Assembly: GCF_001552785.1 (NCBI RefSeq)
Contig: NZ_KQ959483.1
Span: 1-64,000, forward strand
Direction of reading: 5' to 3'
DNA length: 64,000 nucleotides
Source of the DNA: Atopobium deltae
GTDB taxonomy: Bacteria; Actinomycetota; Coriobacteriia; Coriobacteriales; Atopobiaceae
In this document: piece by piece, positions 30,302-44,708 of the stretch
How the letters are laid out: each line of letters begins with the position of its first letter
Numbering within the stretch: the first letter of the stretch is position 1
Program-made: the position numbers and the translations under genes
The notes under the pieces: model-generated
Seen by the model: the letters and a program-made list of their open reading frames with translations, nothing else
The model's database searches: none
What the model was told of the DNA's origin: nothing

Positions 30302-30355
30302 GTCATCATCCTACCCCAGTTAACCCCCGTTATGCTTGCAGCAGTACGCCCGTGT

Positions 30356-30361
30356 TATAAT
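30356..30361 (+). promoter_or_regulatory. Extended -10 promoter element
   Basis: TGTTATAAT is an extended -10 (TG-N-TATAAT) about 45 bp before the ATP-grasp gene. No good -35 box is seen, which fits an extended -10 promoter. Confidence 0.6.
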
Positions 30362-30406
30362 CCGCATGAACAAACGATCTCAAAACAATCTACAAAAGGA
30401 GCGGTC

Positions 30407-31762
30407 ATGAGCCAAGATGCGCATAAAGAACAGCGAGTTGATATCTTGCCTATCGTCATCGGTGGTGATATTGGTGCCTATGCCCTTGCGCGACAATTTC
30501 ACGAGGCTTTTGACGTACTTCCCTGCGTGCTCAACACTGACTTTATTGCCGCTATTACGCATTCACGCATCCTGACAACACATGCGCTTCCAGAGCTTTC
30601 CGCCGAGGTCATTCTCGAAGCTGTGTGCGAGCTGGCGAGCGAGGCTTCGCAAAAACACGTCGTTCTTATCGGCAATACCGATCACGTCATACAACTGCTC
30701 GAAACGATTCACACCCAACTTCCTCAAAAGGTTGTCTGCGTGCTCCCCTCTCAGGAGGCCTTCAAATCCGTCTGCGATAAGGCGCGCTTTTCTGGCTTGT
30801 GCCGTGCCCATGGTCTTGCAACGCCGCAAACCGAGCGCATTAAGCTGGCAGGCACCAAGCCCATCGCGTCAACGGAGCTGCCGTTTCCTGTGGTGGCAAA
30901 ACCCGCCGAGTCGGCGCAGTATTCTTCGTGGATGAAGCTGGGTCTTAAAAAGGTATATTACTTTACCGAGCAAGCTCAGCTCGACGAGTTGTGGCACAAG
31001 CTGCGTGATGTAGGCTTTGAGGGAGATTTTTTGGTGCAGCAGCTTATCGCTGGTGACGATACCTATATGGACTCCATCACTATCTATATGGGCGCCGATG
31101 GACACGCTCGCATGCTGGGCGCGGCGCAGGTGCTGCTAGAGGATCATGCACCAACTATGCTGGGCAACCCCGTTGCCATGGTGCTTCGCCAAAAGCCTGA
31201 GCTGTGGAACAAGGCCGAAGAGATGCTCGCAAGCATCGGCTGGCACGGCTTTGCCAACTTTGATATTAAGCGCGACCCACAAACGGGCGTCGAATATTTT
31301 TTGGACTGCAATCCGCGCATCGGGCGCAACTCGTATTACAACGTTGCAGGTGGCGTCAACCCCATGCGTATCATGGTGGAAGAGGCGCTTGGGCTTGGCG
31401 AGGGCGAGAAGGGTGTCGAGAAGCGCGGCGCGGGCGATAAGGACAGTGCTGGCGAGAAGAGCGATGAAGTCGCCAAGAAGACCAGCACTTATGCAAAATC
31501 TACCAGCAAGAAATCCGTGCACATCGCTGACCAAGAAGCGCTCTATACCTTGGTTCCACTCCAGCTGTTGCGTCGCTATATTCGCGATCCACAACTGCTG
31601 AGCGAAGTGAACGGTCTTATCGCCCAGAAAAAAGTGGCGAACCCGCAGCATTACAAGGCAGATCGCGGATCAAAGCGCATGATGAACGTCTTTTTGACCG
31701 AGTACAATCAACTGCGCAAATTCGCAAAATATTATCCCAAGCCGACGGATAGCTCGTTTTAA
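30407..31762 (+). CDS. ATP-grasp carboxylate-amine ligase
   Basis: 451 residues from the ATG at 30407, with AAAGGAGCGG upstream. The fold is ATP-grasp: a pre-ATP Rossmann-like domain (residues 1-115), ATP lid (PFPVVAKPAESAQYSSW), and Mg-binding residues in GFANFDIKRDP…YFLDCNPRIGRNS. Resemblance to D-aspartate ligases of peptidoglycan cross-bridges is possible but not proven. After the ATP-grasp core comes an unusual 45-residue stretch of Gly/Glu/Lys/Ser (roughly 355-400), encoded by three CGAGAAG motif copies. It looks like a recent low-complexity insertion. A terminator follows. Confidence 0.75.
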   Translation: MSQDAHKEQRVDILPIVIGGDIGAYALARQFHEAFDVLPCVLNTDFIAAITHSRILTTHALPELSAEVILEAVCELASEASQKHVVLIGNTDHVIQLLETIHTQLPQKVVCVLPSQEAFKSVCDKARFSGLCRAHGLATPQTERIKLAGTKPIASTELPFPVVAKPAESAQYSSWMKLGLKKVYYFTEQAQLDELWHKLRDVGFEGDFLVQQLIAGDDTYMDSITIYMGADGHARMLGAAQVLLEDHAPTMLGNPVAMVLRQKPELWNKAEEMLASIGWHGFANFDIKRDPQTGVEYFLDCNPRIGRNSYYNVAGGVNPMRIMVEEALGLGEGEKGVEKRGAGDKDSAGEKSDEVAKKTSTYAKSTSKKSVHIADQEALYTLVPLQLLRRYIRDPQLLSEVNGLIAQKKVANPQHYKADRGSKRMMNVFLTEYNQLRKFAKYYPKPTDSSF

Positions 31763-31878: not shown

Positions 31879-32559
31879 TTATTTCAGCGCGTCAACAAAC
31901 CAGTTTGTCAACGAAGTTGGATGCGTAATCGCTGTGCCAACAACCACGGCCCAAGCACCCGCATCAAGCGCCGCACGAGCATCGGCAGGTGTGTGCACGT
32001 GACCCTCGCAAATAACGGGAAAATCGGGAAACTCGGCAGTCGCGGCACGCAGCAATGCAATGTCGGGTCCCTCGTTTAAGATCGTGTCAATCGCAGATTT
32101 GTTGTGCGATAAGGTCGTCGAAACGATGTCACAGCCACAGGCGACCGCATGACGAATATCGTCGAGCGTCATGCAGTCAGCCATGATGAGCACGTCGGTT
32201 TGTTTGCGCAGCTCGTCAACCGTTTCTTTAAAGCTACGACCATCGGGACGAGGACGATCGGTAGCATCAAGCGCCACAACATCGCAGCCTGCCCACACGC
32301 AGGCAAGTGCATGTCGCAAGGTGGGCGTAATGTAGACGCCTTCATGTCCCTCTTTCCACAAACCGATTACGGGGACCTCAACCTGCCCTTTAATGGCAGC
32401 GATGTCGGCAAGGCCCTGGCAACGAATTGCGGCGGCACCACCCTGCTCGGCTGCCAACGCCATAGCCGCCATAATATCGGGACGACGCAGGGGCTCCGAA
32501 GGATATGCCTGCACGCTGACGATCAGTTTATGATGAATAGCTTCAAGAATGGGATTCAT
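31879..32559 (-). CDS. nanE: N-acetylmannosamine-6-phosphate 2-epimerase
   Basis: 226 residues from ATG 32559 with GGAGG five bases upstream. A TIM-barrel of the NanE family: KLIVSVQA at the start, RCQGLADI, a catalytic Lys in VIGLWKEGHEGVYITP, VALDATDRPRPDG, and GTAITHP at the end. It converts ManNAc-6-P to GlcNAc-6-P, the third step after NanA and NanK. It is last in the nan operon, 29 bp behind nanK. Confidence 0.94.
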   Translation of the reverse strand: MNPILEAIHHKLIVSVQAYPSEPLRRPDIMAAMALAAEQGGAAAIRCQGLADIAAIKGQVEVPVIGLWKEGHEGVYITPTLRHALACVWAGCDVVALDATDRPRPDGRSFKETVDELRKQTDVLIMADCMTLDDIRHAVACGCDIVSTTLSHNKSAIDTILNEGPDIALLRAATAEFPDFPVICEGHVHTPADARAALDAGAWAVVVGTAITHPTSLTNWFVDALK

Positions 32560-32588: not shown

Positions 32589-33563
32589 TTATTGACGATA
32601 CGCAAAGCGGACGAAATTCTCGGCAGCACCAATCAACGGTGCCATACCACCTAACTCGCCAGTGAGCAGCGGAGTTGTTGCCAGAGGATCCATAGCCTGC
32701 GCCCCAAAGCCACGACGGAGCGCATCGTGCCAAAACACGCCAGACTGTACCACTGAGCCGGACAGGATAATACACGCAGGATCCACCATATTGCACGTGC
32801 TCCCCAGTACCGCGCCCAGTGCATAGCCAGCACGCGACTGCGCTTCTTGCGCGAGGCCGTCCCCTGCATCGGCGCGCTGACTAAGATCAGCGCCAGTAAT
32901 GGACGTACCATCCTCGCGATGCATATTACCGCCCAGAGCTTTATAGCTGGCGAGAAGACCAGGGCCTGCTGCAATCGTCTCGACATGACCAGAGCGACCG
33001 CAGGCGCAGGGCATATCGGCAGCTTGTGGGCAGATCACATGACCAATGCTTCCCGCAACATCATGGGCGCCACGCATGATGTAGTGATCATACACGTAAG
33101 CGCCACCAATGCCCGTACCCACCGCAACGACCAAGCAGCTCGCATAGGCTTTTCCAGCACCGTAGCGCGCTTCACCCAAGGCATGTGCATGCACATCGTT
33201 GAGTGCTTTGGTCGGCAAACCACAGCGCGTTGCTACCGTTGAAGCAAGGGGCGTATTTGACCAGCCGGGCATTACATCGTTAGCAAAATGCACGTCACCG
33301 CGTATTGGATCGATAACGCCAGCACTCGAAATACCAATGCCAGCAGGTTCATAACCAGCCTGACGTGCCTGGTTGAGGAGTGCTTGCGCGGCGTCACACA
33401 CACGCTCGAGCACCGCTGCACCGCCTTGTTGTGCGTCGGTGGCCACTTTGTTAAGCATTGTCAGGCGCGGCGTCGAGCGCTCGTCAAGAAAAACGAGTCC
33501 CGAAGCAATTTTGGTGCCGCCAATATCAAGGGCGATAAGCGGCTGTTTTTTTGTGTCCGACAT
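32589..33563 (-). CDS. nanK: ROK-family kinase, probable N-acetylmannosamine kinase
   Basis: 324 residues. N-terminal ATP-binding ALDIGGTKIASGLV, catalytic Asp123 in ALNDVHAHALGE, and the ROK zinc region HVICPQAADMPCACGRSGHVE. The last ligand is His193 instead of the common Cys, a known kind of variation whose effect here is unclear. Within a nan operon, phosphorylation of ManNAc is the likely role. A TAAGGAG site precedes the start. It cannot be fully separated from glucokinase by sequence alone, but no DNA-binding domain is present, so it is not a ROK repressor. Confidence 0.88.
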   Translation of the reverse strand: MSDTKKQPLIALDIGGTKIASGLVFLDERSTPRLTMLNKVATDAQQGGAAVLERVCDAAQALLNQARQAGYEPAGIGISSAGVIDPIRGDVHFANDVMPGWSNTPLASTVATRCGLPTKALNDVHAHALGEARYGAGKAYASCLVVAVGTGIGGAYVYDHYIMRGAHDVAGSIGHVICPQAADMPCACGRSGHVETIAAGPGLLASYKALGGNMHREDGTSITGADLSQRADAGDGLAQEAQSRAGYALGAVLGSTCNMVDPACIILSGSVVQSGVFWHDALRRGFGAQAMDPLATTPLLTGELGGMAPLIGAAENFVRFAYRQ

Positions 33564-33642: not shown

Positions 33643-34563
33643 TTACAGCAGTCCGCACGAAACCAAAACTTCGCGGATATTCTCGACATTCTCGCCCGTC
33701 AAACGCTTCACGGGACGAGGCATTTGATTTGTCTCAAAAATGCCCATGAGCTGCAGCGCTGTCTTAAACGCGCCAACGCCACCTGCGTAGCCCTGCACAC
33801 CCGTCGTGACATCAAAGATGTGCGACAACTCGTTGAGCTTGTCTTGCTCGAGCTTAGCCGTTGCCCAGTCGCCTGCCTGCGCGGCCTTCCACATGCGAAC
33901 ATAACCATAGGGCTCAACGTTGGCAAGACCGGGAACGCTACCATCGGCGCCGCACAAATAAGCGCAGTCGACGACCATCTCGTGGCCCGTCAACACGGAC
34001 AGTGGGTGGCCAGCCTTGGCATTTTCTTGGCACAGGTAGCGGAAATTGATGTCGTCGCCAGAGGAGTCCTTAACGCCCGCAAGCACACCCTCGTGGCCGA
34101 GCTCGATCATGAGTTTCCACGGCAGTTTGGTGTGCACGCACACGGGAATATCGTAGGCAAACACGGGAAGATCCAGCTCGCGAGCCACAATGCGAAAGTG
34201 ATCGGCAATCTCGGTCAGGCCGCCCAAAGCATAAAAAGGCGCGGTGACCACCACGGCATCAGCGCCGAGCTTTTGCGCCATGCGACCATGCTCAAGCACG
34301 CGCTCGGTCTCGGTGTCGATAATACCAACCAACACGGGAACACGGTGATTGACGATGCGAACGGCCTCGGTAATCACCCGCTCGCGCATGGCATCAGTCG
34401 AAAACACAACCTCGCCGGAAGAACCCAAGAAGAACAGCCCGTCAACGCCCGCGTCAATCATGCGGTTGATGAGGTTTTCAAAGGAAGCGATATCCAATGA
34501 ATGATCTTCTCGCTCGGACACTACCACCGGAGGAACGACGCCGCCAATTTTAAAATCACTCAT
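33643..34563 (-). CDS. nanA: N-acetylneuraminate lyase (DHDPS/NAL family)
   Basis: 306 residues. TIM barrel with GSSGE at 47-51, Tyr137 in VFAYDIP and Schiff-base Lys165 in AGVKDSSGD. The family also includes dihydrodipicolinate synthase; the position next to nanK and nanE favours sialic acid cleavage to ManNAc and pyruvate. The ATG at 34563 has GAAAGGAAAG upstream and overlaps the end of the preceding gene by 8 bases, so earlier in-frame starts to 34626 are rejected. Confidence 0.9.
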   Translation of the reverse strand: MSDFKIGGVVPPVVVSEREDHSLDIASFENLINRMIDAGVDGLFFLGSSGEVVFSTDAMRERVITEAVRIVNHRVPVLVGIIDTETERVLEHGRMAQKLGADAVVVTAPFYALGGLTEIADHFRIVARELDLPVFAYDIPVCVHTKLPWKLMIELGHEGVLAGVKDSSGDDINFRYLCQENAKAGHPLSVLTGHEMVVDCAYLCGADGSVPGLANVEPYGYVRMWKAAQAGDWATAKLEQDKLNELSHIFDVTTGVQGYAGGVGAFKTALQLMGIFETNQMPRPVKRLTGENVENIREVLVSCGLL

Positions 34564-35548
34564 GTTCTTTCCTTTCAAAGTGAATGAACTGCAAAATTGC
34601 ATCCTCGAAGTCATTGATTCTCTCATAACCCCATCGAGGATAGCTTACAAGTTTTTTATGAGAAGTACCCAGCTTTTGGTACAACGCATCAAATGAGGAC
34701 AGTTGCTCGGTTTGCCCCAGCTCGCCGACACCCATCAGAGTTGCGGCGGTCACGTCTGGCGCGAAGCTCAAGCAATCAAGGAAGTTCAGTTGAGCGAGAA
34801 GATCATCGGTGTGCGCGCCTTGCGGCTCATGGTGGCGCAAGTAGCTGTGCAGACTTTGATAGATCTGCGGTGTTGCATGGGTGCGGTAGGCCTGCGGTAT
34901 ATCACAGGGGTATGGATTGAGTATCGCAAGTTTTGTCACACGCGGGCCCAGTATGGACGCGGCGGCAAGAGCAAGACCTGCGCCCGTACCTTCGCCTATG
35001 CAAGCAAGGGGCTGAGGGGCAAAGGTGGCGAGATCGGCGGCGGCTTGGGTATCAGCGGCATCTTGCTGCGCAATCCCCAGCGCCACAAGCACCGTCAAAA
35101 GGCTATCTTCAATGCGCTGTGCTTGCGTTGCCCCCTCATCAGACACGAGGTCATACGGACAAAAGCGCTGATCAAGCATCACTACGCGCGCGCCCAAGGC
35201 ACAATAGCGAGTCAGATACAGCCAGCTGCGCGGACCCGTGTGCATGTCATGAAAGTAAACGACCGTTGGCAACGGCGATGAGATTGACGACGCCATCGAA
35301 ACAGATGGTTCTACCACACGAATCGTCAATGGTACACCATCACAAGCGTCAAGATAAATGCGCCCATAGTGCGGGACTGTCGAGAAAATCGTCGAGTTTT
35401 CCCCAAGTTTTGTCTGGTTTGATGGCAGGCTCTCCAACTCTGGAAACACGTTGTACTCAATGGTAGACGGCTGTGCTTTCCACAGTATTTGTAGGTGATG
35501 CTGCACCTGCTCAAGGCGTTGTTGCCAATAGCACTTTATATCGCTCAT
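34556..35548 (-). CDS. CE7 (acetyl xylan esterase-like) pseudoenzyme
   Basis: 330 residues, alpha/beta-hydrolase of the CE7 family, a tandem relative of the next gene upstream. The region of the nucleophile elbow reads IGEGTGAG, so the catalytic Ser is replaced (Gly187). The aspartate loop reads VGELGQTEQ instead of TGLVDDICPV. The His position in the final motif is Tyr308 (RWGYERI instead of EFGHEEI). All three catalytic residues are therefore missing while the fold is kept. Start and stop overlap both neighbours by a few bases, so it is co-translated and not an obvious pseudogene. A binding or regulatory role is inferred. Confidence 0.8.
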   Translation of the reverse strand: MSDIKCYWQQRLEQVQHHLQILWKAQPSTIEYNVFPELESLPSNQTKLGENSTIFSTVPHYGRIYLDACDGVPLTIRVVEPSVSMASSISSPLPTVVYFHDMHTGPRSWLYLTRYCALGARVVMLDQRFCPYDLVSDEGATQAQRIEDSLLTVLVALGIAQQDAADTQAAADLATFAPQPLACIGEGTGAGLALAAASILGPRVTKLAILNPYPCDIPQAYRTHATPQIYQSLHSYLRHHEPQGAHTDDLLAQLNFLDCLSFAPDVTAATLMGVGELGQTEQLSSFDALYQKLGTSHKKLVSYPRWGYERINDFEDAILQFIHFERKEHE

Positions 35549-36561
35549 AACGCATCACAGCCAGACGCGGTCTTCTCACCCGCGACGGTCTTCTCGCCAA
35601 AGGCATCCTTAACAAACCATGACAGTGCCGCATTATCAAAGGCGGGTATTTCTTCATGCCCGAACTCGGGAAACAGTAGATGCTTTTTATCGCAACGCAA
35701 ATTGTTGTACACCGCATACTGGGTTTCCACGGGGCAGATGTCATCAACGAGACCTGTACCAAACAGCACGCTGCAGCGCACCAAATGTGCAAACGAGACG
35801 CTATCGATGTAGCCAAGCTTATAAAAATTCGAAGCAGCCTGCGAACCGTCCGCATCAAACCAACGCGCGTAATAGCGCAGACCTTCGTAAGCCAGCTGGT
35901 CGGCACCAAGCTCATAGATCTTTTGAAAATCGGAGAGGAAGGGGTATAAAATCGCGGCGCGGCGTATAAAATCAGCATTTAAAGCGCAGGTCGCAAGGCC
36001 CACGCCGCCGCCCTGAGAATCCCCATACACATACACGCGCTGCGCGTCAAGGCCCTCAAGCGCACGTACTACGCGACACAAAATGCGAATGTTTTGATGC
36101 AAGCGCACGTAATATAGGTTCTTTTGATCGCCCGTAAGCCCCGTCACGACATGACCTGCCACCGTGGGACCGCAAAAGCCTCCCACATCTTGGCTGCGAC
36201 CGCCCTGACCAGGGTTATCCATGGTGATAGTAGCAAAACCGAGGCCCGCAAAAGTGCAGTTTTCGAGCCAGCTTCTGGTCCTTCCTGGATACCCATGAAA
36301 GCGCAAAAGCACAGGGAGCGCAGGTTGTGCAGGGCGCAAAAAGCGCGCGTACAACTTCGCTTCATGCATGCCAACAAACCACAGGTTAAAAAATTGACAA
36401 CTGGGATAGTCGGCAACCTCGGCGGGCTCGAGCCAAAATTTGAGTGGGCAGCTGTCAGCCTCAGCCATACGAGCTGCCCAAAAATCATCAAAGTCAGCAG
36501 GGATAGGATTGGTTCCTACGTAGGACTCCAAATACTGGCGCTGCTGTTCAAAACTAAGCAT
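35545..36561 (-). CDS. CE7 acetyl esterase (acetyl xylan esterase/cephalosporin C deacetylase type)
   Basis: 338 residues. The complete CE7 triad is visible: Ser182 in YGDSQGGG, Asp273 in GTGLVDDICP, His302 in FGHEEIP, with the RFHGYPGR oxyanion strand at 87-94 and the family QGG…RS block. The family removes acetyl groups from carbohydrates. In a nan operon, O-acetylated sialic acids are the most likely substrates (inference). The C-terminal tail GEKTVAGEKTASGC is unlike the family and contains two copies of the CGAGAAGACC-type motif (one degenerate). It follows the transporter ATPase gene by 18 bp. Confidence 0.87.
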   Translation of the reverse strand: MLSFEQQRQYLESYVGTNPIPADFDDFWAARMAEADSCPLKFWLEPAEVADYPSCQFFNLWFVGMHEAKLYARFLRPAQPALPVLLRFHGYPGRTRSWLENCTFAGLGFATITMDNPGQGGRSQDVGGFCGPTVAGHVVTGLTGDQKNLYYVRLHQNIRILCRVVRALEGLDAQRVYVYGDSQGGGVGLATCALNADFIRRAAILYPFLSDFQKIYELGADQLAYEGLRYYARWFDADGSQAASNFYKLGYIDSVSFAHLVRCSVLFGTGLVDDICPVETQYAVYNNLRCDKKHLLFPEFGHEEIPAFDNAALSWFVKDAFGEKTVAGEKTASGCDAL

Positions 36562-36579: not shown

Positions 36580-37449
36580 TTAAGCTTGTCCCAACTTGGG
36601 ATGCAGCAGCGAGGGCGCCGCACCAAGCAACAGCTTCGTGTAGTCGTCTTTCGGATGTTCGAACACCTCTTGCGCGGGTCCAAGCTCAACGACCTTGCCA
36701 GCGTTCATAACCATAATATCGTCGGAAATATAGCGCACCGTCTGAATATCGTGGCTGATAAAGACCATCGCAAGACCTAGGTCGCGCTTCAGATCCGTAA
36801 GCAAATTCAAGATCTGCGCACGAACCGAAACATCCAACGCACTCGTCGGCTCATCGGCAATAATTGCGTCGGGACCAATCGCAAGCGCGCGAGCAATAGC
36901 AACACGCTGGCGCTGACCACCCGAAAGCTGTCCTGGCAGCGCCTCGAGCGCACTCGAAGGCAGGCCCACCATGCCAATGAGATCGCGCACTCGTCGCTCA
37001 CGCTCAACACTCGTCAACACGTTGTGCACGAGCATAGGATCCAGCAGCTGATCGTGTACCGTCATACGCGCATTTAAGGCGGTGGCGGGGTCTTGGAAGA
37101 CAACCGAAATCACACGACCAATTTTAAGCCTGTCAGCAGCGGTACGCTTCGTAACATCGTTACCCCTAAAGAAGACTTGTCCCGACGTCGGCGCTTGCAA
37201 ACCGCACATAACGTTGGCGGTTGTTGATTTGCCGCAACCAGACTCGCCCACAATGCCCAAGGTTTTACCAGGCATTAAGCGCAGGGTAACACCCTGTATC
37301 GCATGCACAAGACGCGGATTAAAGATGCCTCCCGCACGTGTCTTAAAAGTGACGTGCACATCATTCAAAAAGATAATAGGTGTAACCCCATCAACGGTAC
37401 CGTCATCAAGTGTTACGGGCATGTGTTTTTCGACCGTTGTTCCGCTCAT
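36580..37449 (-). CDS. Peptide/sialic-acid type ABC transporter ATP-binding protein
   Basis: 289 residues. Walker A GESGCGKST, Q-loop VVFQDPATALNARM, signature LSGGQRQRVAIARA, Walker B IIADEPTSALD, switch FISHDIQTV. It is OppF-like but belongs to the second, nan-linked system. Its ATG overlaps the end of the permease-ATPase fusion by 4 bases. It supplies the second ATPase for import. Confidence 0.9.
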   Translation of the reverse strand: MSGTTVEKHMPVTLDDGTVDGVTPIIFLNDVHVTFKTRAGGIFNPRLVHAIQGVTLRLMPGKTLGIVGESGCGKSTTANVMCGLQAPTSGQVFFRGNDVTKRTAADRLKIGRVISVVFQDPATALNARMTVHDQLLDPMLVHNVLTSVERERRVRDLIGMVGLPSSALEALPGQLSGGQRQRVAIARALAIGPDAIIADEPTSALDVSVRAQILNLLTDLKRDLGLAMVFISHDIQTVRYISDDIMVMNAGKVVELGPAQEVFEHPKDDYTKLLLGAAPSLLHPKLGQA

Positions 37450-39458
37450 GCGGCACCTCCTTTCACTGCCGACTTCAGTCCTGCGCTTGCAAGAACCTCG
37501 TCGGGCAATTCCGCAACCTTATGGTGCGTATTGGGAATTTGCTTGAGGACGGGCAGCACGTCAAAGCCAACATCGGGATGGCTCGAACGCGCCGCAAAGC
37601 GATCGCCCGGCGCAAAGTCCACGGGAGAAGGAACGGTACCAGGCACCTGATGCAGGCGACCTGCGCCACCCTCGATCGAGATAACCGAACCCAGAAGGCC
37701 GCGGGTATATTCGTGAATGGGGTTGATGAGCAGTTCTTTGGTCGGCGCCTGTTCAATGACTTGACCTGCATACATGACGGTAATATCGGCAGCGACTTCT
37801 GCAACCAAGGCGAGGTCATGCGACACGAAGATCATGGCAAAACCGAGCTTTGCTTGCAGCTCGTTGAGCAGTTTGATGACCTGTTTTTGCACCGTCACGT
37901 CCAGAGCCGTGGTGGGTTCGTCACAAATCACAAGCTTAGGATCACGCGTCAAAGCCATAGCGATAAGAACGCGCTGACGCTGGCCGCCCGACAACTCATG
38001 CGGATAGCTTTCGAGCACGCGCACGGGGTCGAGACCAACCAAGCGAAGCAGATCCTCCGCAGAACGCGTACCACCGCGATCGGTCAGTTGCTTCATCTGA
38101 GATTTAATAAGCATCGAAGGGTTGAGCGAGCTCAATGCATCCTGATACACCATTGCAATCTCGTGACCACGCAACTCGTTGTGCTGCTTATCGCTCATCT
38201 CGAGCAGGTTTTTGCCCTCATACAGCACTTCACCAGAAATCTGGGCACGCTTATCGAGAAGACCCATGATGGTCAGCGAGGTAATGGACTTACCACAGCC
38301 TGACTCGCCTACCAGACCCATGGTCTGACCAGGGCGTACATCAAAGCTCACGTGGTCAACCACGTTGACGTCACCATGACGCGGGAATTTGATGCACAGA
38401 TCTTTAACGCGAAGCAAGGGTTCCACGCTGTAGTCGGGAACATGCCGGTCATTACGCACCGACTCCACCTTGGCAAGTGCCGTCAAAGCGGCATCCAGGG
38501 ATTCTGCTTGCGCAGCATAGGCAGCAACGGGGTCGGCCACCAGGCGGTCAGCCTCGCGGACAGCCTCGGGATCGTGATCCTCAACGAGACCAGAAGGCGC
38601 GGCGACAAGAGCATCGGTAATGCCTTCGGACAAAATGTTAAGACACAGACAGGTAATCATAATGGCAAGACCAGGATAGAGCGCCTGCCACCAACGACCA
38701 GCCAAAACACCCGCACGGGCGTCGGCAATGATGTTACCCCAAGTTGGCATTGGTTCTTGAATACCAGCGGCAATAAAGGTCAGCGATGCTTCGAAGATAA
38801 TAGCATCGGCAACGAGAGTAACGGCATAGACCATGATGGGTGCAATGCAGTTACGCATGACGTGGCGCCACAAAATCCACGGAGCGCGAGCGCCCGACAC
38901 AACTACAGCACGCACGTAATCCTCGCCATACTCGCTTACGATGTTCGCACGCACCAGACGGGCAATTTGCGGAATGTACATAAAGCCGATGGAGAAGATA
39001 ATACCAGGCATGCTGTTTCCCAAAATCGAGACAAATACGGCGGCCAACGCGATGCCAGGAAATGACATGACAACGTCAATGACACGCATGATGATCTCGG
39101 AAACCCATTTGCGCGAAACGGCAGCAATAGAGCCAATGATCGAGCCAACGAAGAGCGCGACCGCTGTGGCGCTAAAGCCGATGACCAGCGAATAACGTCC
39201 ACCGTACAAAATACGCGAGAAGACATCGCGGCCCTTGTCGTCAGTACCAAAGATAAAGTCAGGCGAGGGGGCCTGACGGGCAACGAAGATCTCGAAGGGA
39301 TTGTGCGGAGCAATAAAGGTTGCAAAAATAGCACTCAGTGCTACCAGCACCAAGACGACAACCGAAATTTTGGAAGATGTGCTCATGTGCTTGAAGCCAG
39401 CAAATTTTGCTTTTTTGCGGACCTTCTCTTCCACGTTAAGAGCTTGATTTTTACGCAT
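37446..39458 (-). CDS. Fused DppC-type permease and DppD-type ATPase
   Basis: 670 residues. Residues ~1-280 are a DppC permease (cytosolic basic start, APHNPFEIF, HPF-like FIFGTDDKGRDVFSRILYG, EAA loop DYVRAVVVSGARAPWILWRH). After a charged linker (~280-340) comes a complete ATPase: Walker A GESGCGKSI, Q-loop MVYQDALSSLNPSM, signature LSGGQRQRVLIAMA, Walker [13 protein letters not shown]. Such permease-ATPase fusions are known in actinobacterial peptide-type transporters, including sialic acid systems. It combines half the channel with one motor. Confidence 0.9.
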   Translation of the reverse strand: MRKNQALNVEEKVRKKAKFAGFKHMSTSSKISVVVLVLVALSAIFATFIAPHNPFEIFVARQAPSPDFIFGTDDKGRDVFSRILYGGRYSLVIGFSATAVALFVGSIIGSIAAVSRKWVSEIIMRVIDVVMSFPGIALAAVFVSILGNSMPGIIFSIGFMYIPQIARLVRANIVSEYGEDYVRAVVVSGARAPWILWRHVMRNCIAPIMVYAVTLVADAIIFEASLTFIAAGIQEPMPTWGNIIADARAGVLAGRWWQALYPGLAIMITCLCLNILSEGITDALVAAPSGLVEDHDPEAVREADRLVADPVAAYAAQAESLDAALTALAKVESVRNDRHVPDYSVEPLLRVKDLCIKFPRHGDVNVVDHVSFDVRPGQTMGLVGESGCGKSITSLTIMGLLDKRAQISGEVLYEGKNLLEMSDKQHNELRGHEIAMVYQDALSSLNPSMLIKSQMKQLTDRGGTRSAEDLLRLVGLDPVRVLESYPHELSGGQRQRVLIAMALTRDPKLVICDEPTTALDVTVQKQVIKLLNELQAKLGFAMIFVSHDLALVAEVAADITVMYAGQVIEQAPTKELLINPIHEYTRGLLGSVISIEGGAGRLHQVPGTVPSPVDFAPGDRFAARSSHPDVGFDVLPVLKQIPNTHHKVAELPDEVLASAGLKSAVKGGAA

Positions 39459-39459
39459 C

Positions 39460-40410
39460 TTACACCGTCCTTATCCTTGGATTGATAAGGATGTAGAGCA
39501 TATCGACCACAATGTTAATGATGATAAACGATAGCGCTACAACAATAACAACGCCCTGTACCAGATTGGGCTCGTTGCCCTGGATTCCCGTGGTGATGGC
39601 CGTACCCATGCCAGGGATCGAGAAGACGCACTCAATAACAACGGCGCCTCCGAGTAAATAGCCGATCTTCATACCAAGGGTGGTTACGGGCGTAATAAGC
39701 GCGTTACGCAGGACATTTTTTGCAATGACGACACGCTTCGGGATACCCGCACCAATGGCGGTACGCACGTAGTCCTTATCGAGCTCTTCGACCATGGAGG
39801 TACGAATAACGCGCGTCAACTGGCCCGTAAGGGGCATGGCCAGCGCCACGGCGGGCATGATCATGCGGCGCCACCAACTCACGCTTAAGAAAACGCCAAG
39901 AGGACCCGAAGCAGGAAGGACGTGAAGATTTGCCGAGAAGAGCAAGATGAGCAAGACAGCCAACCAAAACGAGGGTGTGGCTAAGGCAAGAATCGAAATA
40001 ACACGAATCAGCTGATCGGGCCACTGATCACGATACAATGCAGCAACAACACCAAGAACAAAGGACAAAATGGTGCCAATGATAAGACCAAAGAAGGTCA
40101 GCTGCATGGTAATCGGTAATGCTTCAGAAATTTTGGCATTGACGGAAGCATTGCTCACGCCGTAGGTTCCTAGGTCACCTTGCATAAAACCACCCATGTA
40201 ACGCACATAGCGCACAGGTAGTGGATCATCAAGACCATGGGTTTTATGGTATTGAGCGACTGCTTCTGGTGTGACGTTTTCGCCGAGCTGCGAATAGGCA
40301 GGGTCAATCGGCGAAAATGACATGAGAACAAACACTAGAAGCGTGGCCCCGAGAACCATAAACGGCAAGGCGATAAGCCTTCGCCCAATGAGTCTCAGAA
40401 GATTACTCAC
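39460..40410 (-). CDS. DppB-type ABC transporter permease
   Basis: 316 residues. It starts LRLIGRRLIALPFMVLGATLL, has six membrane spans and an EAA loop DYVRTAIGAGIPKRVVIAKN. It pairs with the fusion protein, from which it is one base away. It is preceded by a hairpin that separates it from the binding-protein gene. Confidence 0.9.
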   Translation of the reverse strand: MSNLLRLIGRRLIALPFMVLGATLLVFVLMSFSPIDPAYSQLGENVTPEAVAQYHKTHGLDDPLPVRYVRYMGGFMQGDLGTYGVSNASVNAKISEALPITMQLTFFGLIIGTILSFVLGVVAALYRDQWPDQLIRVISILALATPSFWLAVLLILLFSANLHVLPASGPLGVFLSVSWWRRMIMPAVALAMPLTGQLTRVIRTSMVEELDKDYVRTAIGAGIPKRVVIAKNVLRNALITPVTTLGMKIGYLLGGAVVIECVFSIPGMGTAITTGIQGNEPNLVQGVVIVVALSFIIINIVVDMLYILINPRIRTV

Positions 40411-40642: not shown

Positions 40643-42217
40643 TTATTTAGCTTTTGCGCCAACGGCGTAAACGCCCGTGGTGCTAATGCCGCCGAAGTCG
40701 GCGATCTTCTCGGCATAGTAAGCGGTGCTGACCTTCTTGTGCAGGACAGGATACAGAGGTGCGTACTCAGCGATAATATCGAAGCACTTGTTCCACAGAT
40801 CCTGCTGCTCCTTGCCACCCTTCTGGACAGCCTGAGCCAAGAGGTCCTGAACTTCCTTGCACTTAGGATCGTCGGCCCACTGAGTACGGGTGGTGGTCCA
40901 GGTGTTATTACCGTAGTACCAACTCATGAGCAGGTCGGGGTCATTACCGAAGCAGGAAGCGTCACCAGGGGCAAGCGCGATGTCGTAGCTCTGAGGATTT
41001 TGGTCGATCGCAGAGTACATAGCGGAAGACTGGTTTTTCTGGATCTCTACCTTAAAGCCGATGGCCTCGAGGTCCTGCTGTACCTGAGCAGACATCGAAA
41101 CGACAAAGTCGGAGTCGGTGGTCGAAAGCGTGATCTTACCAGGAGTGTAGCCCGCTTCCTTGAGCAGCGCCTTGGCCTTCTCGACATCATGCGTATAAAC
41201 GGTTGAAGCCTTGTGGTAATTCGTGTGATTCTCAGGCAGGTAGCAGGTCAAACCAGCAGCCTGGCCAGCAAAGGTGTTCTTAATCATCTTGTCAACATCA
41301 AGAGCGTAACGGCAAGCCTGACGTACCTTGACGTTGTCGAATGGCTTATGCTTTGCATTCATCATCATGAAGACAAGACCAAAGCCCTGTACCTGATCAA
41401 CCTTAACGCCGTCCATACCCTTGATGGTATCGACGTCCTCGGCAGGTATGGACTCCATGATCATGTCGGTACCCTCGCTGAAGGCCGTCTTACGAGCGGT
41501 TGCGTCAACCTGGACATCCCACTGCATGGTGCCAGCACCCGCAGGATAGGGGCCGTTATATTCTTTATTGGGTTTAGCAATAATTTGCGTCTCGCCGTCG
41601 ACCTTCTCGTAAGCCCAAGGACCAGAACCAATAGGCATTGCAGTCAAAGTCTTATCGTCAACATCGGCAGGAACAACACGGATGATGCTCAGACGCTGCT
41701 TAAGCAGTTCAAAGGGGAACTTCGTCTTAACGGTAACCGTGTTGTCGTCCTTCTTGGTGATGGACTCGATGGGCGAAAGCATAGGAATGTAAATGTTGCC
41801 TTCGGCGGTTGCACGCTCGAACGACTTCACAACATCCTCGGGCTTAACGGGATTGCCGTTCGAGAACTTCGCGTCTTTGCGGAGTTTAATCTCGAAGGTG
41901 GTGTCATCGACTTTTGTGGGCTCATCGTCGGCAGCAAGCTCTTTGTGGACTGAATAGTCACGGAAGTCAATGCCGTATAGACCCTCAACAACATGCCAGT
42001 TGGTACCACAGGCTAATGCGGAAGAGGTGTTTGAAGGGTGGAAGTTCTTTGTCTTGTAGGCAGCGGCAATGGTAATGGTTGCATCCTTATTTGCCTTAAC
42101 CTCCGAAGCCTTCTCGGCGGGTTTTCCACAGCCAACCAAGCCAAGGCCCAGCAAAGCGGCCGCAGAGGCGGTTGCACCAAGGAACGAACGACGAGTCATA
42201 CCAGCATTCTGAAGCAT
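40643..42217 (-). CDS. Family-5 solute-binding lipoprotein, probable sialic acid binder
   Basis: 524 residues. Twin-arginine motif TRRSFLG followed by a hydrophobic stretch and lipobox LVGC. The body is an SBP family 5 (DppA/OppA-type) protein: FEIKLRKDAKFSNGNPVKPEDV and VRQACRYALDVDKMI are the best family matches. Members of this class bind sialic acid in the SatA systems of Haemophilus ducreyi and in actinobacterial relatives; this use here is inferred from the operon. The ATG at 42217 has GGAGATC upstream; earlier in-frame starts lack one. Confidence 0.85.
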   Translation of the reverse strand: MLQNAGMTRRSFLGATASAAALLGLGLVGCGKPAEKASEVKANKDATITIAAAYKTKNFHPSNTSSALACGTNWHVVEGLYGIDFRDYSVHKELAADDEPTKVDDTTFEIKLRKDAKFSNGNPVKPEDVVKSFERATAEGNIYIPMLSPIESITKKDDNTVTVKTKFPFELLKQRLSIIRVVPADVDDKTLTAMPIGSGPWAYEKVDGETQIIAKPNKEYNGPYPAGAGTMQWDVQVDATARKTAFSEGTDMIMESIPAEDVDTIKGMDGVKVDQVQGFGLVFMMMNAKHKPFDNVKVRQACRYALDVDKMIKNTFAGQAAGLTCYLPENHTNYHKASTVYTHDVEKAKALLKEAGYTPGKITLSTTDSDFVVSMSAQVQQDLEAIGFKVEIQKNQSSAMYSAIDQNPQSYDIALAPGDASCFGNDPDLLMSWYYGNNTWTTTRTQWADDPKCKEVQDLLAQAVQKGGKEQQDLWNKCFDIIAEYAPLYPVLHKKVSTAYYAEKIADFGGISTTGVYAVGAKAK

Positions 42218-42682: not shown

Positions 42683-42854
42683 GGCAGACGTAACATAAGT
42701 CGTCCGTGAGCACATAGACGATCTGGCAAAAATATGAAGCATATACTTTGCTATGATGCAAGATATATATCGTTTATGCGTTAATCCATATGTCTACGCA
42801 TCAGAACATCCATCAGTCCACGCTTGGTCCGCATGCCAACAAGAAGGAGCACCA

Positions 42855-44708
42855 TTGTCAGCAAAATCCTATGATGTCGTCGTTGTGGGAAGTGGCATTG
42901 CTGGCTGCGTTGCAGCCATCGCCGCAGCGCAAGCGGGAGCTCGTGTAGCGCTTTGCTGCGCAGGCAAACTCTTTGGTGGCTCGAGCTTCTTTGAAGGGAC
43001 CTGGGGACTCGGCCTTATCGCTCCCGAAAATACTGCCGATGAGCAGGACTTATGTCAAACCATAACAAAGGTAGGCGAAGGCGTAGTTGACAAGGATTTG
43101 GTTTGCTGCTTCGTGCATAATATTGCGCCAACACTTGAGTGGTTGCAGCATGATTGTCACGTGAGCTTGCGTCATGCAAGCAAGGGCAAAACGCAACAGC
43201 GCGACTATCTCCCCTGCTTCGATCACAAACACCGAGCCTGGTATGGCTTGGAACACGATGTGCTAAAAACGGGGTTTGAGCAGCAATTTTCGTTGTTGTC
43301 GATCGAGTGTTATGCTCATTTGTCCCTCGTGGATATACAAACCTGCAGCAACGATGACGCAGATGACGATACTTCAGACGGCAACGGCGCTTCTGGCACT
43401 GATAACACTTCTGGTGAGAAGATCTGCGGCGTCGAGCTGTACGATCTTATCGGCAAGCGCTTTGTACACTTTGCTTGCAGCAGCGTTGTGCTCGCAACGG
43501 GAGGCTTTGGCGGGCTGTTTAGTCCTACCTTGACGCAGCCCGACGTGCTTTCGGTGGCGCACAGTATTGCGCTGATCCGCGGGGCAAACCTCGTGAACAC
43601 TGAGTTTATGCAGTTTATGCCTTGTATTGTGAAGCCCGTGCGCGGCCTTATTTTTAACGAGAAGACCTTTAAATATGCACACCTCAGCGCGGGTGCAGGA
43701 GAGATACGGGACGAGTCCGAGACGCGAAGCAGCTCCGAGACACAACTCGAGCCTCAGACACAGGACGGCGAAGGTGGCAACGCTTTATACGATCCTCTGC
43801 ACGATGCGCGACTGCTTGATCAGCGTTCCGAACACGGGCCCTTCTCGGCACGCTTAGATGATGCGGCTATTGATCTTGCTATCGACGGGTCGACGACACG
43901 TACGGCACAGGTGCATTATGAACTACCTGTACAGCTTCCAGAATTTATGCAGACCTATTTTTCGTGGTTGCAAACAACAGCCCAGGTCAAACCTGGTGAT
44001 CCGCTCGAAATAGCCCTGTGGCCCCATGCCTCAAGCGGAGGCCTATTAATCGATACACAAGCGCGCTGTGTTGGTGGTCCTACGGGATTGTACGCGGCAG
44101 GTGAATGCTGTGGTGGCATGCATGGAGCTGATCGCTTGGGAGGACTTTCGAGCGCAAATGGCCTCGTGTTTGGACGTATTGCAGGGGCTGCAGCAGCGGC
44201 GCATGCGCGAGTCATCGCACATGCGCAGACTGCAATGCAAAAGCAGATGCAAAAGCTTCCTGATCGAGTGCTGCCTCAGCGAGCGCGGGCTCAACAATAC
44301 CTGCAACAAATTCGCAAATGTATGCAACGCTACGCTGGCATACGACGTTGTGCCGAGGAACTGCAGCACGCGCAATCCACACTTGAGAAACTCAGAGCAC
44401 AGATGAACGCATCACTCGTACCAGCTGATCAGGCTTCAATTGACCAAGCCTCAGTCGAGCAAACCTCAGCAGGTGAGCACCCAACAAAACACATCAATGA
44501 ACTGCGATATGACACCATTCTGTGCTACAACCTCTTGCAAGAAGCACTTCTTGTGCTGCACGCCATGAGCTGGCGTGCCGAGAGCCGTGGCAGCCATTAC
44601 AGAAGTGACATTCCCCATAAGCTGAAGCGTTTTGAAGGTATGCAAAAGGTTTTTCTTGACCCACGCGACCACGCAATCATACGCTCTGAACTTCTCGACA
44701 GGGCATAA
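42855..44708 (+). CDS. FAD-dependent oxidoreductase of the FrdA/SdhA/NadB family
   Basis: 617 residues from a TTG at 42855 preceded by AAGGAG six bases upstream; this start fits directly before the FAD fold (SYDVVVVGSGIAGCVAAIAA), whereas an in-frame ATG at 42753 adds 34 residues of no family value. The FAD-binding GGFGG and the C-terminal GLYAAGECCGGMHGADRLGG are typical of fumarate reductase/L-aspartate oxidase flavoproteins. No iron-sulfur or membrane subunit genes are next to it. L-aspartate oxidase is possible but nadA/nadC are not nearby. It is convergent with livF. Confidence 0.82.
   Translation: MSAKSYDVVVVGSGIAGCVAAIAAAQAGARVALCCAGKLFGGSSFFEGTWGLGLIAPENTADEQDLCQTITKVGEGVVDKDLVCCFVHNIAPTLEWLQHDCHVSLRHASKGKTQQRDYLPCFDHKHRAWYGLEHDVLKTGFEQQFSLLSIECYAHLSLVDIQTCSNDDADDDTSDGNGASGTDNTSGEKICGVELYDLIGKRFVHFACSSVVLATGGFGGLFSPTLTQPDVLSVAHSIALIRGANLVNTEFMQFMPCIVKPVRGLIFNEKTFKYAHLSAGAGEIRDESETRSSSETQLEPQTQDGEGGNALYDPLHDARLLDQRSEHGPFSARLDDAAIDLAIDGSTTRTAQVHYELPVQLPEFMQTYFSWLQTTAQVKPGDPLEIALWPHASSGGLLIDTQARCVGGPTGLYAAGECCGGMHGADRLGGLSSANGLVFGRIAGAAAAAHARVIAHAQTAMQKQMQKLPDRVLPQRARAQQYLQQIRKCMQRYAGIRRCAEELQHAQSTLEKLRAQMNASLVPADQASIDQASVEQTSAGEHPTKHINELRYDTILCYNLLQEALLVLHAMSWRAESRGSHYRSDIPHKLKRFEGMQKVFLDPRDHAIIRSELLDRA

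Follow-up and report, generated by a model that had tools for sequence, protein, structure and literature searches.

Two tandem members of the CE7 esterase family, one with a complete catalytic apparatus and one that has lost its nucleophile, are maintained side by side in the sialic acid operons of Atopobium and its relatives, and we propose that the second protein, hereafter the partner, is probably an obligate non-catalytic subunit of a heteromeric CE7 deacetylase. We infer the complex, its effect on activity and its substrate from co-occurrence, gene order, gene fusion, the one-origin clades into which the two proteins fall, selection, rate matching, the exchange of an arginine between them and the CE7 fold of the partner, which together favour such a heteromer. 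The preliminary description of this DNA had spoken of a CE7 pseudoenzyme kept under translation; there is strong support for its retention, since it is conserved, its dN/dS stays below 1, it occurs fused to CE7 and its evolutionary distances follow those of CE7.

A CE7 gene pair in a sialic acid operon

The window analysed here is a 64,000-nucleotide stretch of Atopobium deltae (contig NZ_KQ959483.1, positions 1 to 64,000). On its minus strand, genes for a substrate-binding protein, OppB, a permease-ATPase, an ATPase, the CE7 esterase, the partner, nanA, nanK and nanE follow one another in this order (Table 1), and nanA, nanK and nanE are thus accompanied on the same strand by a transporter of the sialic acid type, an Opp-type ABC system. 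The NanA-like lyase and the NanK-like kinase scored below the cut-offs of the corresponding NCBIfam models (92.6 bits for N-acetylneuraminate lyase and 94 bits for N-acetylmannosamine kinase), and the nanE start is likely at 32559, in an open frame extending to 32796. As first described, the downstream copy is full length and overlaps both neighbours by a few base pairs. Its stop codon occupies 34556-34558 and the nanA ATG lies at 34563 with a GGAAAG ribosome-binding sequence; the spacing between CE7 and partner is likewise short or overlapping in most relatives. The two proteins are the only AXE1 members of this genome.

Table 1. Features of the sialic acid operon in the window.
Feature	Position	Strand	Basis
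NanE N-acetylmannosamine-6-phosphate epimerase	31879..32559	-	NCBIfam PRK01130, 262 bits (cut-off 189)
NanK-like ROK kinase	32589..33563	-	Pfam ROK, E 1.9e-49
NanA-like N-acetylneuraminate lyase (DHDPS family)	33643..34563	-	Pfam DHDPS, E 5.7e-42
8-bp overlap, partner stop / nanA start	34556..34563	-	sequence
Non-catalytic CE7-fold partner, 330 aa	34556..35548	-	Pfam AXE1 with AlphaFold2, Foldseek and VIA-align
4-bp ATGA overlap, CE7 stop / partner start	35545..35548	-	sequence
CE7/AXE1 catalytic esterase, 338 aa	35545..36561	-	Pfam AXE1; residues aligned with 40 relatives
Opp/Dpp-type ABC ATPase (F subunit)	36580..37449	-	family matches
Fused permease-ATPase (C and D subunits) of the same Opp/Dpp transporter	37446..39458	-	Pfam BPD_transp_1 and ABC_tran in one frame
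OppB-type permease	39460..40410	-	position, and order kept in relatives
SBP_bac_5 substrate-binding protein with twin-arginine signal (MTRRSFLG; start assumed)	40643..42217	-	Pfam E 4.9e-65; TAT_signal_seq

Two further observations concern the surroundings of the pair. The OppC/OppD fusion is common to the other Coriobacteriia nan operons read, whereas the Firmicutes operons have separate genes. Positions 30332-31762 (+), at the distal end of the nan operon, encode a 476-aa ATP-grasp-like protein with weak family matches only.

One copy is a complete esterase, the other has lost its nucleophile

The upstream protein matched Pfam AXE1 with 261 bits (E 1.7e-77, cut-off 21) and its nearest solved structure is 3fcy (E 2.2e-66). 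Alignment confirmed the catalytic residues initially assigned to it, Ser182 (in GDSQG), Asp273 and His302, and added the oxyanion Tyr91, so that the protein combines CE7 family membership with an entire Ser-Asp-His triad (GxSQG / D / HE). CE7 enzymes are defined by RGQ, GxSxG and HE motifs (PMC9606172; PMC6282417); the RGQ signature is missing here, residues 117-119 reading PGQ (Pro117). The beta-interface loop is intact (35 aa), and the CE7s that occur with a partner retain this loop along with the three-helix insertion and the N-terminal extension.

The downstream partner shares about 25% identity with the upstream CE7. It matched AXE1 with 63 bits (E 2.5e-17, same cut-off) and was left unnamed by every model in an NCBIfam search. 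Following the structure prediction and CE7 alignment that had been suggested for it, the partner proved to be an AXE1 protein of CE7 fold: for its AlphaFold2 model (22 sequences; pLDDT 83.9, pTM 0.87) the best 48 Foldseek matches were all CE7 structures, and VIA-align Z scores ranged from 26.7 to 30.5 for CE7 chains and did not exceed 19.7 for other alpha/beta hydrolases. Its alignment places Gly187 (in GEGTG) at Ser182, Gly278 (GELGQ) at Asp273, Tyr308 (YERIND) at His302 and Met102 at the oxyanion Tyr91, leaving neither a GxSQG serine nor a triad. Arg128, the arginine of RGQ, and the family motif YP[KR]W.YERIND.E are kept.

The reported loss of Ser, Asp and His holds for the window copy; family-wide, however, only the Ser is always gone. 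Among 43 aligned partners its position is occupied by Gly in 41 and Arg in two, while 38 retain the Asp, 38 retain the His and the oxyanion Tyr is absent. All three catalytic residues are lost only in the window's genus, which takes in Atopobium minutum and, apparently, A. fossor. E-R-x-N is invariant across the 43 partners, and E-R-x-N-x-F-E is invariant over two phyla. We also considered an alternative nucleophile in the window copy; the only polar residues of the elbow are Thr188 and Glu186, neither of which would be usual for an esterase, and this candidate was rejected.

Similar elbows were seen in two other proteins. A 741-aa protein (locus L203, 4327-6552) has two alpha/beta hydrolase domains in tandem, with GYSLG in the first and GEGLG in the second. 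It looks like a further, separate instance in which a dead domain with this GEGxG elbow has been joined to an active one. A 269-aa alpha/beta hydrolase (locus L201, 5435-6244) has GEGLGG in place of GxSxGG.

The pair is conserved in gene order and fused in some genomes

Relatives were recovered by an alignment-based scan of genome contigs, a single-sequence scan having given none. In a class sample of 398 genomes, the pair was present in all 54 that carry this CE7 clade, a co-occurrence which argues that the pairing is not due to chance; with the fusions described below, it is the prozyme-like pattern of a dead paralog conserved with its active copy. At the family level, 38 of 140 genomes matched. 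Hosts include A. minutum, A. fossor, Lancefieldella rimae, Olegusella massiliensis, Parafannyhessea umbonata, Olsenella and Collinsella aerofaciens. The search for the same pair in other nan operons, proposed at the outset, was successful, and nearly all loci read display the order Sat/Opp transporter-CE7-partner-nanA-nanK-nanE, with the partner directly between CE7 and nanA. Frameshifts or loss in close relatives had been envisaged as signs of decay, and neither a lost nor a broken copy was found. Three genomes with a match to the partner profile and no paired CE7 (G072, G230 and G246) turned out to contain unrelated alpha/beta hydrolases.

Outside the class, the pair was found in Oscillospiraceae, one Clostridia genome and Anaerococcus. 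The Oscillospiraceae pair is accompanied by an Opp-type transporter, a flavoprotein and a Gfo/Idh dehydrogenase (L080 8680-9813; L193 10611-11723; L194 7113-8249) whose best solved match, 8tdi, is a glucuronide-3-dehydrogenase, and nanA, nanK and nanE are absent from these loci. The original placement of the pair inside a sialic acid operon is correct for the window, but the pair is not confined to such operons. An FrdA/NadB-like flavoprotein (FAD_binding_2) is also encoded in the window at 42753-44708 (+), pointing away from the operon; its relatives lie near the operon in Atopobium and Parafannyhessea and within the CE7-partner operon of Oscillospiraceae (L080 5261-6871, L193, L194), and a functional tie is possible.

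At 19 loci with a standalone CE7, no partner was present within about 1.5 kb. One of the nan operons (genome G497) contains a CE7 with RGQ and no partner, the next open reading frame being regulator-like and without a match, which indicates that a partner is not needed for CE7 work in general and goes with this particular clade.

In 13 Atopobiaceae-type genomes CE7 and partner form one open frame, and a single CE7-partner polypeptide also occurs in three genomes of the Anaerococcus family; contig ends truncate a few of these fusions. Two to three changes on the CE7 tree are needed to account for the fused state, so that there was probably more than one fusion event or a fused gene has separated again. 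The model of one fusion (G136; halves of about 334 and 200 residues) reached pLDDT 89.1 and pTM 0.89 over 534 residues, a pTM that would be hard to reach unless the relative placement of the two halves were also predicted with confidence. Single partners were misaligned to the wrong half of fusions and were excluded from the fused structure alignment.

A single origin, purifying selection and matched rates

A tree of 100 rows resolves three clades: partners (SH-aLRT 100), paired CE7s (91) and standalone CE7s (95). Comparison of dN/dS between close species, a check the preliminary description had proposed for strains, revealed purifying selection on the partner: values lie between 0.06 and 0.32 in 14 of the 15 comparisons, the fifteenth giving 0.65 with a dS of only 0.015. 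Corresponding values for CE7 are 0.02-0.14. The partner is thus one clade under purifying selection.

Evolutionary distances of CE7 and partner are correlated at 0.77, and still at 0.63 (permutation p 0.0005) when four operon genes (transporter, NanK) are controlled for. Between partner and NanA the correlation is 0.07 (p 0.29), and the known complex partners of the transporter reach 0.87-0.93 in the same test. The partner evolves faster, with a mean distance of 1.34 against 0.55 for CE7.

Reciprocal change of an arginine

The Arg of RGQ is present in 16/16 standalone CE7s, is replaced by Pro in 39/41 paired CE7s and is found in 38/43 partners. The two paired CE7s that lack the Pro are Anaerococcus fusions in which RGQ is kept; the exchange is therefore not universal. 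Paired and standalone CE7s are separated at four positions, the site of this Arg and Val152, Gln156 and Arg159, the last three of which lie just behind the beta-interface loop, a location that would fit an altered subunit contact.

We suggest that a single ancient duplication gave rise to a catalytic subunit and a partner. The catalytic subunit would have kept Ser-His-Asp, the oxyanion Tyr and the beta-interface loop and lost the RGQ Arg; the partner would have lost the Ser and the oxyanion Tyr and kept that Arg together with a polar pocket formed by Glu186, usually Asp and His, Arg310 and Asn312. It would dock on the catalytic subunit as a heteromer, made covalent by fusion in some species, and support the stability, activity or substrate access of that subunit. 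In the window, the complex would probably strip O-acetyl groups from sialic acids imported by the Sat/Opp-type transporter, rendering them degradable by NanA, NanK and NanE. The substrate may be O-acetylated acidic sugars more widely, because the Oscillospiraceae pair sits with a dehydrogenase that best matches a glucuronide-3-dehydrogenase and without nan genes. A stricter, prozyme-like division of labour is conceivable, if somewhat doubtful, in which the RGQ-less CE7 is impaired and works only within the heteromer, the partner supplying the Arg or a sugar pocket.

Alternative explanations

The main rival to a heteromeric deacetylase is a new function for the partner in the old pocket, given the residues conserved there. 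The partner would then either act as a ligand sensor or catalyse a reaction other than that of an esterase; a mutarotase- or lactonase-like conversion of the same sugar, carried out by the GEGxG Glu together with His, Asp and Arg, is one example. The fusions would be bifunctional. A ligand sensor among alpha/beta hydrolases is known in the gibberellin receptor GID1. The near-invariant residues of the partner mostly surround the former active site (HD..R..RGW, GEGxG, NP.P, GT..D, HER.N), in loops that a pure scaffold would have no need to conserve; Glu186, which precedes the Ser position, is kept in 39/43 partners; and the Oscillospiraceae pair serves an operon without nan genes. Fusion and rate matching, moreover, would be compatible with two enzymes of consecutive steps too, and the faster evolution of the partner and the partner-less CE7 in the G497 nan operon also speak against a heteromer. 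However, Asp and His are gone in the window's genus, the Anaerococcus partner lacks the entire GEGxG and the His, and yet the protein is retained in both; the partner is strongly coupled in rate to CE7 and not to NanA, and we know of no enzyme with its residue set. We consider such a new role unlikely.

Much less probable is a mixed form of the canonical, doughnut-shaped CE7 homohexamer in which the partner replaces some of the protomers. This arrangement had been put forward from the outset. CE7 enzymes are hexamers (PMC6209228), and the fold of the partner agrees with it. The hexamer is held by the beta-interface loop, the three-helix insertion and the N-terminal extension (PMC6209228), and in the partners the loop is lost or replaced: it measures 15 aa in the window copy compared to 35 in active copies, and 93% of partners have a deletion of the TVxGH segment. 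The three-helix insertion (in the fused, the Collinsella and some further partners) or the N-terminal extension is missing from many of them as well, although the window partner retains that insertion and a long N-terminus. Mixed oligomers of the usual hexameric kind are therefore unlikely and not favoured; from these sequences, a heteromer would be expected to use a different contact. A duplicate in decay, still in frame only owing to its operon position, is barely credible. The lost catalytic residues, the low Pfam score and the faster change than in CE7 could point that way, but decay is rejected by the presence of the partner in every class genome with this CE7, dN/dS well below 1 and motifs invariant over two phyla.

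Automatic annotation lists one esterase beside a second, weak one or a protein with no name. Should the two genes encode a single enzyme, testing the CE7 of Atopobium, Lancefieldella, Olsenella or Collinsella without its partner may give no activity or a misleading result. The family is, in addition, a clean natural experiment for studying how a pseudoenzyme subunit originates, with standalone, paired and fused states of one fold and reciprocal residue loss, in culturable human-associated bacteria (gut, oral and genital) with sialic acid operons.

Comparison with known systems

A literature search found no description of a CE7 pseudoenzyme or of a CE7 pair, and a survey of actinobacterial nan genes (PMC8754123) makes no mention of an esterase. 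The catalytic copy resembles known CE7 esterases (acetyl xylan esterase / cephalosporin C deacetylase; 3fcy, 6fkx, 1ods, TM0077) in fold, Pfam family, triad, GxSQG, HE and beta-interface loop. Those enzymes are, however, homohexamers with RGQ (PMC6209228, PMC9606172), whereas here PGQ is combined with a putatively obligate partner that has neither the Ser nor the beta-interface loop. A similar system is pneumococcal Axe (SPD_1506), likewise an intracellular Ser esterase tied to sialic acid use (PMC5352144; PMC3658417). In pneumococcus, a CE7 on its own is able to remove acetyl groups from a sialylated mucin (PMC5352144), and sialic acid loci frequently contain axe-type genes (PMC3658417); for Axe and the axe/nanS-type esterases, these papers report a single active esterase with no inactive one beside it.

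Dead duplicates serving as required subunits are known from trypanosome deoxyhypusine synthase and from AdoMetDC with its prozyme (PMC3663545, PMC5201418). The former, in which the impaired copy is raised 3000-fold by its dead paralog (PMC3663545), would by analogy be the closest functional parallel. The trypanosome systems differ in being unrelated eukaryotic enzymes without an operon, and activation, deduced for the CE7 pair, is experimental there. As a bacterial hydrolase hexamer built from two gene products, metformin hydrolase MetCaCb (PMC11271267) offers a further likeness, although it belongs to the metal-dependent ureohydrolase superfamily and differs in fold and chemistry.
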